IMG/VR virus record: IMGVR_UViG_3300032782_000031
Location: 1-21,972 of that record
Length of the DNA stretch: 21,972 bases
Reading direction: 5' to 3' (one strand)
Origin: a virus
Part shown: positions 7,119 through 13,878 of the stretch, in pieces
Layout of the letters: the number at the start of each line of letters is the position of its first letter
How positions within the stretch are numbered: the first letter of the stretch is position 1
The notes under the pieces: generated by a model
What the model saw: the letters and a program-made list of their open reading frames with translations, nothing else
Database searches by the model: none
Told to the model about the DNA's origin: nothing
Position numbers and translations under genes: made by a program

Positions 7119-7388
7119 ATGGCACCGATCATTCCGTTCTTGCCTCTGATAGCAGCAGGCGTAGGAGCGGCCACTACTGCCGTGGCATTGGCCGAGCAGC
7201 CATCTTTACCGACAGCTACGCAGCCTACCAGCACGCAATCCACTTCAACGCAGGCTCAGGTTTCCGATGCGGCGGCTCAGGCTCAGGCGGCCAATCTTGC
7301 CCAGCGCCGGGGTCTGGCTTCGACGATCCTTACCAGTCCGATGGGTGCCGCTTCCGCCGTAACGACCAAGCCTACATTGGGAGCATAG
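7119..7388 (+). CDS. Small Ala/Gln/Thr-rich phage protein between TerL and portal (89 aa)
   Basis: ATG 7119 has AAGAGG upstream and starts 3 bases after TerL. The protein opens with a hydrophobic segment (PIIPFLPLIAAGVGAATTAV) that could span a membrane. A low-complexity Thr/Ser/Gln/Ala region follows, then a conserved-looking end (NLAQRRGLASTILTSPMG). I have seen the RRG-x-ASTILT motif in small proteins near the portal of other podovirus-like phages, where it is of unknown function, probably a minor virion component. A signal-like N-terminus may be membrane-active, as in a few phage ejection proteins, but this is inference. The portal gene begins directly after its stop. Confidence 0.7.
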   Translation: MAPIIPFLPLIAAGVGAATTAVALAEQPSLPTATQPTSTQSTSTQAQVSDAAAQAQAANLAQRRGLASTILTSPMGAASAVTTKPTLGA

Positions 7389-9877: not shown

Positions 9878-10602
9878 TGCCGAATCAGGACGAAGGCGAA
9901 TACAGGCCTGTTGGGTCATCGCAAGTTCAAGTGCGCGTAGCACTTTGCCCCCGTTCGCAGCCTTTTGACGAGAGCGTCGACTCTCTCAATGTGGCGATCG
10001 GCGTGGCGCAGATGGCGGGATTCCGAATCGTTATCGAGAAAGTGCGTAAGGGATGTCCTGGATTTCAGAACGCCGGACCGGTGCTCGCTCACTTCCTCAA
10101 GTCCAAGGATACCCATCTGTTTCTCGGCGCCGATGATGTTGTCTATCCTCCCGATACCCTGGTGCGGCTGATCAATGCCGACAGGGATATTGTTTCGGGA
10201 ATCTATCGAAAGAATCGCCTTGACCGGATAGAGCCCGCCAACCTGGTTGAGTCGGGAGAGAAATTTCTTGCGTGCCTGCATGAAGGCGGTATCTATGAAA
10301 CTGAGTTCGCCGCCGGCCACACCATGACGATCAAGCGGGCCGTGATTGAGAAGATGGTTGCCGATTATCCCGAGCTCGAATACGACGACAAGAACGGTTC
10401 GGGAGAAGTCCACTACGGGTTGTTCCTTCCTATTATCGAAAGCAGGCAATGCTATCAGGATGACTGGTCTTTCTCGATTCGAGCCCGAAAAAGCGGTTTC
10501 CGTATCTGGAATGATTTCGGAGTTAAGCTGAAGCACTTCTGCGGAGACTTTCTCGGATTTGAAGCTCTGGAGAAGATAGAGGTCACCAATGCCGGCAGCT
10601 AG
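9877..10602 (+). CDS. Glycosyltransferase-like protein (GT-A fold) within the capsid module
   Basis: The protein is 241 residues and starts at ATG 9877, overlapping the previous stop. The sequence has the layout of a GT-A/family 2-like glycosyltransferase. An N-terminal nucleotide-binding region is followed by HLFLGADDVVYPPDTL (residues 80-95) with the acidic metal/sugar-nucleotide motif. Then come DIVSGIYRKN (104-113), an acceptor-side segment AGHTMTIKRAVIEKM (146-160), and QDDWSFSIRARKSGFRIW (194-211) with a following conserved His (KLKHFCG). It would transfer a sugar from a nucleotide-sugar, possibly to a virion protein or host surface polymer. The acceptor is unknown. There is no membrane segment. 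It is an unusual gene to find between portal and scaffold. Confidence 0.8.
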   Translation: MPNQDEGEYRPVGSSQVQVRVALCPRSQPFDESVDSLNVAIGVAQMAGFRIVIEKVRKGCPGFQNAGPVLAHFLKSKDTHLFLGADDVVYPPDTLVRLINADRDIVSGIYRKNRLDRIEPANLVESGEKFLACLHEGGIYETEFAAGHTMTIKRAVIEKMVADYPELEYDDKNGSGEVHYGLFLPIIESRQCYQDDWSFSIRARKSGFRIWNDFGVKLKHFCGDFLGFEALEKIEVTNAGS

Positions 10603-10798
10603 CGGTGGAAAGGGAAGCAAGGGAGGATCGAGCGGTGGAGCATCGAATGCTGCACTTCATGACGACGAGGACTTGATGGCGCGGCGCCGCGTACTGTTCG
10701 CCGAGTGGAAGGGAAAAAGGAAGTCCGGCAAAGCCAAACACCCCAACCACATCATCGACTATTCGAATTCTCCTGCACCTCCGGTAAAGAGAGGCTGA
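10589..10798 (+). CDS. Small basic protein with the shared C-terminal SPxPP tag (69 aa)
   Basis: ATG 10589 lies 14 bases inside the end of the glycosyltransferase gene, with a GAGG-type site before it. The N-terminus is a Gly/Ser/Lys linker (GGKGSKGGSSGGASNAAL). A helical charged part follows (DDEDLMARRRVLFAEWKGKR), then HPNHIIDYSNSPAPPVKRG. The last 15 residues follow the same pattern as the ends of the next two proteins, including the scaffold: two hydrophobics, an acid, Tyr, two residues, Ser-Pro-x-Pro-Pro and Lys. The linker-plus-helix-plus-tag plan suggests a protein meant to be bound inside the procapsid. No known family is recognised. Confidence 0.7.
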   Translation: MPAASGGKGSKGGSSGGASNAALHDDEDLMARRRVLFAEWKGKRKSGKAKHPNHIIDYSNSPAPPVKRG

Positions 10799-10800
10799 TC

Positions 10801-11043
10801 ATGGCAAAATCGCAAGCGCAGATGTCCGACAAGGAGCGCGAAGAAAAATGGATGGCCGAAAGCGATGCTCGCACGCTGGCTGAGGCTGACGTGATTCGCA
10901 ACGATGAGAAGCGTCTCGGCAAGGCGCAGGAAGCCGCCAAGCGTCTGGCGGAAGAAGCGCAGGAGCAGGCCGACGCCATGCGGAGAGCCGGAAAAGGGAT
11001 GCTCGAATATTCAAATTCCCCAAAACCACCAAAGAAAAATTGA
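10801..11043 (+). CDS. Small charged helical protein with the shared C-terminal tag (80 aa)
   Basis: ATG 10801 has GAGAGG upstream and starts 2 bases after the previous stop. The frame is open further upstream, but only this ATG has a ribosome site. The protein is a single charged helix or coiled coil (MSDKEREEKWMAESDARTL, AEADVIRNDEKRL, AAKRLAEEAQEQADAMRRAG), followed by MLEYSNSPKPPKKN. I have seen similar 'ESDARTL-x-EA-x-x-I-x-x-D' proteins near capsid genes of other phages, where they are hypothetical. The C-terminal tail is nearly the same as in its two neighbours. A minor head protein or an assembly factor is likely, but unproven. Confidence 0.75.
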   Translation: MAKSQAQMSDKEREEKWMAESDARTLAEADVIRNDEKRLGKAQEAAKRLAEEAQEQADAMRRAGKGMLEYSNSPKPPKKN

Positions 11044-11087
11044 CTTTCGATGCATTAAGTGGTTTGCTTCTATGAAAGAAGGAATGA

Positions 11088-11792
11088 ATGCCTGAAGACA
11101 ATCAAACGACGTCTGAATCCCTGGGATGGAGAGCTGGACTGCCGGGCGATCTCCAAAAGGACGAAACCTTTTCGCAATTCAAGACGGTTGGCGATTTCGC
11201 CAAGCACCATCTTGAGGTTTCGAAAAAGGCTACCGAACTGGAGGGAAAGCTCAGCAATTATGTTCCCAAACTTCCGGATAATGCGACGGATGAGGACCGT
11301 AATCTCTATTACGAAGCTTTAGGCAGACCAAAAACCGCCAGCGAATACGAGTTTGACGGAGAGGACAAGAACGCCACCGAGTGGACGAATGAGTGGAAGC
11401 AGCAATTTCATTCTCTAGGCTTGACGAAAACTCAGGCCAAAGCATTGAGTTCCGCATGGAATACTTCGATACAGAAGATGGTCGATGCGCACAATGCTTC
11501 CGTTCAGAATGAAATGAAGTCTGCCGAAGCGAAGCTCAGAAGCGAGATGGGCGACAAGTACGATACCAACGTGGAACTGGCCAAACGAATGACCCAGAAG
11601 CACCTGGGCGCGGAATTCGATAAGACGTTCAACAATCTTCCGGCGGAATCCCGTTTCGGAGTTGTCAGGCTTCTATTGAAGGTTGCGTCATTGACAGGTG
11701 AGGATGTGTCGCCAAAGGCAGGGCATACTCAATCGGGATCCAAGGTGAGCTTTATTGAGTACGACAAGAGCCCAGCGCCTCCAAAGAGATAG
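11088..11792 (+). CDS. Capsid scaffolding/assembly protein with C-terminal SPxPP tag
   Basis: This 234-residue acidic, mainly helical protein lies directly before the major capsid gene, the normal scaffold position. The pattern SLGWRAGLPGDLQKDETFSQ, then TVGDFAKHHLEVSKKATELE, then YYEALGRPKTASEYEFDG is typical of phage capsid assembly scaffolds. These scaffolds line the procapsid and leave before or during DNA entry. Residues 120-200 continue as helices. The last 13 residues (FIEYDKSPAPPKR) repeat the tail seen on the two preceding proteins. In known scaffolds the C-terminus contacts the coat protein, so the tag may be the coat-binding element. ATG 11088 has AAGAAGGA upstream, and the nearby ATG 11084 is out of frame. 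Confidence 0.85.
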   Translation: MPEDNQTTSESLGWRAGLPGDLQKDETFSQFKTVGDFAKHHLEVSKKATELEGKLSNYVPKLPDNATDEDRNLYYEALGRPKTASEYEFDGEDKNATEWTNEWKQQFHSLGLTKTQAKALSSAWNTSIQKMVDAHNASVQNEMKSAEAKLRSEMGDKYDTNVELAKRMTQKHLGAEFDKTFNNLPAESRFGVVRLLLKVASLTGEDVSPKAGHTQSGSKVSFIEYDKSPAPPKR

Positions 11793-11808: not shown

Positions 11809-12861
11809 ATGGCTGTTGATGTATCGCAATTGGGGTACAGCACATTCACCGACATCGTCGCGAATTACTCCTCGTCCGATGCCGCCGCGAGGTTCATTCT
11901 TCCAAAGCGCGTGCTTGACCGCATGACGCCCCTGGTAAGAATGTTGCCTCTGGTATCAAGCAACAATATTCTATCCAATATCGCTACCCGTACCGATTCT
12001 CTACCGGTGGCGAGTACCCGCCGCTTCAATGAGGGCATCAAGGCCACGGCGGCTAAGAACGCTCCGATCAATGATCCGATCGCCATGTTCGAGGACTATT
12101 CCGAGGTCGACAAAGACCTTTGGGAAATCCAGAATGATCCGAACGCCTGGCGGGCCGATCAGGACATGAACCATATCGAAGGCCTCTTCCAGTTGATGGA
12201 GTCCACTCTTCTTTATGGCTCTCTGGCAACCAATCCCGGAGGCTTCAACGGCCTGGCTACCCGATTCAATAATCTTGAATCCTATCCGAACGGTGATCAG
12301 AGCTGGCAGCCTAATGTGTGGAACGGCGGCGCTTCTTCCGGAAATGTCACCAGCGCGTGGATGATCGAGTTCGGTGACGATACGGTGTATGGAATCTATC
12401 CTCCAAATACCCCGGCCGGTCTGAGCATTCGCGATCTGGGAGAATCGACAAAGGAGCTGGCAAGCGCAACCGGCGCCCAGGGACTGAATTACATGTACCA
12501 GGTTCTTCGCACTATGCTGCGCTGGTACCTTGGCATTCAGATCGCCGACGAGCGGTGCGTGCAGCGGATCTGCAATATCAACCCGACGGCACTCTCGACA
12601 AATAACTTCGATGAGAACATCTTCATTCAGGCGAAGAACTGGTTGCCGCGTGCCGGCGAGGCTCCCGGTACCATCATTCTCGTCAACCGGGCGCTCAAGA
12701 CGCAGATCGATATCCGGGCGGTATCGCAGAAGATCAATACCTATTTCACGCCTCCCGGCGATGGATCGATGGATGTGTTCGGGAAAGCTGTTACCAAGTT
12801 CCAGAACATTCCGATTTACGTGGCGGAAAAAATTCTCTCGACCGAAACGGTCCTGACCTAG
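11809..12861 (+). CDS. Major capsid protein
   Basis: This 350-residue protein should build the icosahedral shell with the HK97-type fold. GGGAG precedes ATG 11809. Characteristic parts are the N-terminal helix region (ARFILPKRVLDRMTPLVRML), NDPIAMFEDYSEVDKDL, the LLYGSLATNPGGFNGLATRF element, MIEFGDDTVYGIYPPNTPAG, and the C-terminal P-domain-like KAVTKFQNIPIYVAEKIL. It belongs to the capsid type found with Bbp16-like cement proteins in podoviruses related to BPP-1. It has no long N-terminal prohead delta domain, consistent with a separate scaffold gene. Its position between scaffold and cement supports the assignment. Confidence 0.92.
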   Translation: MAVDVSQLGYSTFTDIVANYSSSDAAARFILPKRVLDRMTPLVRMLPLVSSNNILSNIATRTDSLPVASTRRFNEGIKATAAKNAPINDPIAMFEDYSEVDKDLWEIQNDPNAWRADQDMNHIEGLFQLMESTLLYGSLATNPGGFNGLATRFNNLESYPNGDQSWQPNVWNGGASSGNVTSAWMIEFGDDTVYGIYPPNTPAGLSIRDLGESTKELASATGAQGLNYMYQVLRTMLRWYLGIQIADERCVQRICNINPTALSTNNFDENIFIQAKNWLPRAGEAPGTIILVNRALKTQIDIRAVSQKINTYFTPPGDGSMDVFGKAVTKFQNIPIYVAEKILSTETVLT

Positions 12862-13428: not shown

Positions 13429-13878
13429 ATGAAGGTGGAAGCCAAATGCATTGCCCGTGCCTGGGATAGTCAAGCATGCGTGCTTTTCTATCCCGGCGAG
13501 GTTTCGACAATCGAGCATGATGGCCATCTTGCCGAATTGAAGGTGGGAGACAAGTTCGTGTTCGAATTCGATCGAACGATGTCCGGAACCGGATGCTCTC
13601 CTGCTATCGGAGGTTTTGTTTGCCGGGTATGCAAACGTTCCTTCGATACGCTGAATCTTCTGGGAACACATACCCGTTCGGCGCACAATGATACGCCTCT
13701 TGTAAATCGGCCAGCGGACGTCGACGACGAAAAGATTCAGCTTGACGGCAGAGGAAAGAAGAAGAATAAGACATTCACCTGTAAGGATTGCGGAGAGACA
13801 GTCCCCAATCTCTATGCTCTTCGCGTTCACAAAAAGGGGCACAGACAAGCCGCCGAGACTACACCTGTCCCGGCATAG
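13429..13878 (+). CDS. Virion-module protein with two C2H2 zinc fingers (149 aa)
   Basis: ATG 13429 directly follows the cement gene's stop. Residues 1-50 form a small beta domain (VLFYPGEVSTIEHDGHLAEL, KVGDKFVFEF) like that of short proteins often found after capsid genes. Residues 63-87 and 116-139 are two classical fingers: C65, C68, H81, H86 (C-x2-C-x12-H-x4-H) and C118, C121, H134, H138 (C-x2-C-x12-H-x3-H). They are joined by a 31-residue polar and basic linker (GRGKKKNK near its end). This is close to eukaryotic-style C2H2 fingers and rare in a phage structural operon. It may bind DNA, perhaps as an internal or ejected protein, or bind a virion partner. The finger pattern is clear, the role unknown. 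Confidence 0.85.
   Translation: MKVEAKCIARAWDSQACVLFYPGEVSTIEHDGHLAELKVGDKFVFEFDRTMSGTGCSPAIGGFVCRVCKRSFDTLNLLGTHTRSAHNDTPLVNRPADVDDEKIQLDGRGKKKNKTFTCKDCGETVPNLYALRVHKKGHRQAAETTPVPA

Follow-up and report, generated by a model that had tools for sequence, protein, structure and literature searches.

Why should three consecutive proteins with unrelated bodies, encoded by separate genes in the head module of a virus, end in the same short peptide? This question is raised by virus record IMGVR_UViG_3300032782_000031, of which positions 1 to 21,972 were analyzed (21,972 bases, hereafter the window). The window contains genes for terminase, portal (PF12236), scaffold, GP7-type major capsid protein (PF20911), and tail; the portal gene lies upstream and the scaffold gene immediately before the capsid gene, a gene order that was also found in relatives. 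A genome-contig scan with the capsid protein gave no bacterial relative. Between the capsid and tail genes (13429–13878) lies a gene whose product has two zinc fingers of the C2H2 type (PF13912, E = 1.6e-9), and positions 392–1098 form a GC-rich low-complexity stretch, several frames of which give long Ala/Glu-rich, Pro-rich, or Gly-rich runs.

All three tagged genes are on the plus strand. Small protein 1 (10589–10798, 69 aa, pI 10.3) has an N-terminus rich in Gly/Ser/Lys, followed by a conserved SNAALxDDED...W segment and the C-terminal tag IIDYSNSPAPPVKRG (10751–10795); it had no Pfam or PHROG matches, and its family has 24 members in relatives. Small protein 2 (10801–11043, 80 aa) is charged, probably helical, and ends with MLEYSNSPKPPKKN (10999–11040). 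The third protein (11088–11792, 234 aa), predicted to be all-helical in an AlphaFold2 model, has the C-terminus FIEYDKSPAPPKR (11751–11789). These ends are precisely those quoted in an earlier note on this DNA, and its statement that no other protein of the window ends this way was borne out by a scan of all open reading frames of at least 30 aa, which returned the three carriers only; one further regular-expression match fell in a spurious reverse-strand frame. The assignment of the third protein as the scaffold also holds: it belongs to phrog_3742/phrog_458, has phage capsid-assembly proteins as homologues, and adjoins the capsid gene on its upstream side. PHROGs and many records label phrog_458 as a protease, which is likely a propagated misannotation. 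A protease function for the scaffold was rejected, as the structure model is helical throughout and found no significant counterpart in the PDB, and PDB sequence searches gave no credible relative for either scaffold queried. The major capsid protein (11809–12861, plus strand), which is the putative docking partner of the tag, is of the GP7/epsilon15 type (PF20911, E = 1.8e-62), and a homologue showed a fold match to the capsids of Carin1, BPP-1, and epsilon15.

To place the peptide in a wider context, we scanned IMG/VR, which gave dozens of relatives of the window. The tag occurs far beyond this window, within about 20 residues of the C-terminus in all cases. The SPxPP pattern described in the earlier note is present on the three window proteins but is too narrow as a definition: it is merely the local form of a wider, lineage-specific aromatic C-terminal core, hydrophobic-[YFW]-[P/D/G/S]-[K/N/S]-[S/M], which was found in 94 of 109 scaffolds versus 10% of other gene tails. 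A reading of the tail as an SH3 ligand (PxxPx[KR]) was rejected because the proline part is missing from most lineages. In 36 related scaffolds, the Y, K, S, and last P of the tag have an entropy of only 0.2–0.5 bit, and the linker in front of it (residues 209–221; 11712–11750, plus strand) is the most variable segment of the protein, with a mean entropy of 2.5 bits. Thus, a conserved C-terminus is preceded by a hypervariable linker. When the scaffold was modeled alone with AlphaFold2, residues 209–222 had pLDDT values below 50, suggesting low order, and the last 30 residues were without helix. A check for loss of the motif among scaffold homologues found the tail kept, and the docking reading was not refuted.

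The scaffold tail differs among relatives, and the small-protein tails of the same genome differ alongside it. Examples of scaffold/small-protein pairs are WFPNSPPSPTGL/WFPNSPPSPTGK, MVYDKSNMPPAKA/MKYDKSEMPPAKE, VWFPNSPPSPTGL/NWFPNSPPSPTGK (L017), DWFPNSPPSPTGR/KFFPNSPESPNGK (L060), SWFPNSPKSPTGK/NYFPKSPLSPNGK (L063), KMVYDKSNMPPAKA/KMKYDKSEMPPAKE (L057), and AWMNMYKNPKARK/AWTKMYSQAKG (L053). Homologues of small protein 2 in L057 and L058 bear the tag of their own scaffold. Among 109 non-redundant genomes, the sum of own-genome tail matches had a z of 10.5 against permuted pairings and was reached in 0 of 20,000 permutations, a figure which does not count independent events because the genomes are related. 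A fairer figure is that a scaffold-like tail (score ≥30) occurs on another gene of the same genome in 23% of cases versus 0.3% for cross-genome pairings, the latter being scaffold/genome pairings whose capsid proteins are less than 45% identical. Many relatives have a tagged scaffold and no tagged partner detected within about 5 kb, and some low or odd tail matches (L079, L132, and a far-downstream one in L169) are probably due to chance.

A blind search of gene tails returned mainly coherent families: small protein 1 (24 members), Gp10-like proteins of phrog_825 (10), and small protein 2 (3, window included). The tag is present on at least three unrelated protein families, and probably on several more. 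On one soil contig (L120/L209), the scaffold ends with TTLYPNMAGLGNGHEG, and four small proteins end with MYPKLATNDGD, SAAETIYPKQGKK, SPAHKLYPNQK, and ESADKLYPKKAE; two of the small proteins resemble DUF6582 and DUF6496 below the threshold, and one belongs with the Gp10-like proteins. Another contig (L220) pairs SPAEKLYPNQGKKK with the scaffold tail SPAETLYPNQGNTNS. In a marine group, a basic protein of 44–61 aa, of the LWANIHAKRKRI type, carries a MYPNQK or KLYPKMA end in some genomes and stops before the tag in others, and the scaffold tails are near-identical across both sets. In sequenced phage records, 22 matches of this protein were found, in all of which the alignment ended at residue 44–45 of 51, just before the tag. 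The existence of this protein with and without the tag, together with alignments that end in front of it, indicates that the tag is separable from the body. For the matches from marine and soil genomes, the short core is the main basis, and individually they are less secure than those within the clade of the window. Many of the tagged small proteins are basic, but the Gp10-like proteins are acidic. On several marine contigs, an upstream 169-aa protein ends with EIMYSKEI. We also noted a second common C-terminus, of the S/T-x-KTLLGQ type, on small proteins upstream of the portal (7119–7388 in the window; L070:3037–3243, L071:2512–2919, and L081:2208–2423).

We then examined well-studied phages by scanning every annotated gene tail. 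Only gp6 (the scaffold, SAFYPKK) and gp10 (DAFYPDGEDD) were marked in epsilon15, and only bbp18 (RLYAASNMNP) and bbp20 (RLYGASSMSA) in BPP-1, where the matching pair is LYAASNMNP/LYGASSMSA. As with the tags in the window, the tails of gp10 and bbp20 match that of their own scaffold; weaker versions were seen in BcepC6B, Caulobacter JessA, and Xanthomonas CP2. Together with the corresponding proteins of other phages, gp10 and bbp20 form one family (phrog_825), unrelated to the small proteins of the window, and the member on the soil contig matches the Pfam family Gp10-like (PF21628). No Gp10-like protein was recognized in the window, which has two other small-protein families. Test phages fetched later agreed with prediction: in phiV10, Enterobacter Tyrion, and Salmonella 66FD, the scaffold carries RSAAEVLYGK and the Gp10-like protein KSAAxTLYG. 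Agreement was limited to the short aromatic core in the Xanthomonas phages Olaya and 10KY502B, ctQRb9, and zth2-2. In L292 (782–1156), the Gp10-like protein seems to carry a tag-like core twice toward its end, as AKSLYGNEA and as IANYLYKD. The genes of L201 (PQ492659, Limnohabitans phage DC33), classed in Inoviridae, form an epsilon15-type podovirus head module.

The position of gp10 in the particle has been described differently over time. It was identified by proteomics of infectious epsilon15 particles, and a 130-aa protein is a better fit for the outer staple density that had been attributed to gp10 (PMC9207676); a 2025 paper keeps gp10 as the staple and places it on the inner surface (PMC12391199). 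According to PDB sequence searches, 3j40 is the sole entry for the gp10 family, and the density assigned to gp10 in it is probably that of a wrong protein (PMC9207676). Databases still name epsilon15 gp10 (L070:7705–8040) as the major coat protein.

Could the shared peptide be a functionless by-product of copied DNA, the 3' end of the scaffold gene having been duplicated or spread by gene conversion? The genes are neighbors, and in some genomes the peptides are identical, as in L017, where both tails contain WFPNSPPSPTG. However, only one of the ten informative codons in L017 is identical, and over all residues common to scaffold and partner tails, 80 of 206 codons agree, compared with 77.5 predicted from genome codon usage. 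In the window, the two small-protein tails use the scaffold codon at 3/7 and 1/7 shared residues (2.6 and 2.2 expected from codon usage), in agreement with the remark of the earlier note that the codons differ. Since codon agreement is no higher than codon usage predicts, recent duplication or gene conversion is unlikely, conversion of the scaffold 3' end was rejected on this test, and copied DNA as an explanation has almost no probability left. The peptide may still have an ancient common origin, followed by selection. Selection on the peptide, which had been proposed from the window alone, is now well supported by same-genome co-variation, the codon test, recurrence on unrelated families, and tag gain and loss on one body.

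As to the binding partner, the scaffold C-terminus attaches to the coat protein in both P22 and herpesviruses. The C-terminal region of the P22 scaffold is essential for assembly (PMC9962691). A natural comparison is offered by Pelagibacter phage HTVC035P and Vibrio phage VP5: their scaffolds (E = 9e-35 and 7e-16, respectively) and portals (2e-156 and 3e-103) are homologous, their capsid proteins show no detectable relation, and the ends of their scaffolds are unrelated in sequence. In these two distant comparison phages, on which the argument is based, a homologous scaffold and portal combined with an unrelated coat and a different tail indicate the capsid protein as the partner. The idea of the earlier note that the tag docks on the coat thereby gains support of an indirect kind: the tail type follows the family of the coat, and neither the portal nor the body of the scaffold. 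The binding partner of the small proteins is very probably that of the scaffold, and we infer that it is the coat protein. In an AlphaFold2 model in which stop read-through fuses the L005 tail to the capsid protein, the tag block reached about 61 pLDDT compared with 53–56 in the control (scaffold alone), a difference which could be explained by conservation alone.

A reasonable hypothesis, which we consider fairly likely on this comparative evidence, is that the shared C-terminus is a modular, scaffold-derived docking tag for the capsid protein that carries small proteins into the procapsid. The scaffold would dock, by a short peptide at its free C-terminus, on the inside of the major capsid protein; a linker that varies and is probably flexible precedes this peptide. 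Bearing the same peptide, unrelated small proteins whose genes lie next to that of the scaffold could use the same capsid-protein sites and join the procapsid among scaffold molecules. When the capsid site changes in a lineage, scaffold and small-protein tags would change together, and the small proteins might then stay in the virion, bind DNA, or be ejected. A broader version, to which we give an even chance, is that epsilon15-type phages possess a general natural cargo-loading system in which the lineage-specific scaffold tail is a transferable label. Many small and frequently basic proteins would have acquired or lost this label, which has them packed into the head and possibly injected into the host; gp10 would then ride inside the head as a passenger and would not be the outer staple of 3J40.

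The small size of the tagged proteins and the position of their genes next to the scaffold and capsid genes would also suit assembly regulators, whose scaffold-like tails cap capsid subunits and delay assembly or displace the scaffold, the proteins not being retained in the particle; a common docking site would indeed imply competition with the scaffold. We regard this as unlikely, since gp10 was found in infectious epsilon15 particles (PMC9207676), and since four different tagged small proteins on one soil contig, as well as tag gain and loss on one body, suit passengers better than a core regulator. A different partner, either the portal at the nucleation vertex or the scaffold body, would place the tagged proteins in the scaffold core and not on the coat. 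In T4, the scaffolding core is where internal proteins are directed (PMC3012670), and in P22 the scaffold interacts with the portal too (PMC13386823). HTVC035P and VP5 speak against such a partner, because in them a homologous portal and scaffold body go with a coat that is unrelated and a scaffold tail of another kind, and we think it quite improbable.

It is also conceivable that the tail is a degradation or processing signal for a host or phage protease, common to proteins removed after assembly, given that scaffolds have to exit the head and that phrog_458 carries the protease label. Yet variation is greatest in the last residues of the tail, and the part retained is an internal aromatic core, a pattern not typical of C-terminal degrons, and the scaffold model is that of an all-helical protein with no significant PDB match. 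The survival of a tagged protein in epsilon15 virions (PMC9207676) makes such a signal more doubtful still, and its probability is very low. The docking tag that loads passengers is thus the reading we prefer. If it is true, the last residues of a scaffold would tell which uncharacterized small proteins reach the head in a phage group that is large and widespread; ready-made peptides would be available for cargo loading into epsilon15-type shells; tiny widespread tagged families (Gp10-like, DUF6496-like, DUF6582-like, and ENIHAKR-type) would obtain their first functional context; and epsilon15 gp10 would gain a testable role, its place in the virion becoming testable as well.

Several known systems resemble the proposed one in part. 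The capsid targeting sequence (CTS) of T4 is N-terminal and is cut off by the prohead protease. It is the sole conserved part of diverse small internal proteins, which it sends into the prohead (PMC3012670). By description, the tag is like the CTS in being a short peptide on unrelated small proteins, but it is C-terminal, of the same type as the tail of the scaffold itself, and lineage-specific; no prohead protease was recognized among the genes examined here. In encapsulins, a C-terminal cargo-loading peptide docks cargo inside an HK97-fold shell. The likeness to this peptide is again one of description. The present tag is shared with the scaffold and belongs to a phage procapsid, in a head module with terminase, portal, and scaffold, unlike the permanent compartment of encapsulins. 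In herpesviruses, the scaffold and protease precursors bind the major capsid protein through a common C-terminal tail; that pair consists of nested-gene products with the same body, whereas here the bodies are unrelated and the genes separate.

In P22, foreign proteins fused to the scaffold C-terminus become encapsulated (PMC9962691). The scaffold C-terminus would likewise serve as the coat-docking part here, with about 13 residues instead of the helix-turn-helix domain of about 36 residues in P22; no helix-turn-helix was seen at the C-terminus of the scaffold model. Unlike the man-made P22 fusions, the tag is natural and is located on separate proteins. A natural C-terminal copy of the scaffold tail that co-varies with lineage on several unrelated families was not found in the literature searched, which is weak evidence because the search covered open-access papers only. 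That a short peptide can direct diverse small proteins to the head was already known, both from T4 (PMC3012670) and, artificially, from P22 (PMC9962691); what seems new here is a C-terminal, lineage-specific tag shared with the scaffold itself.
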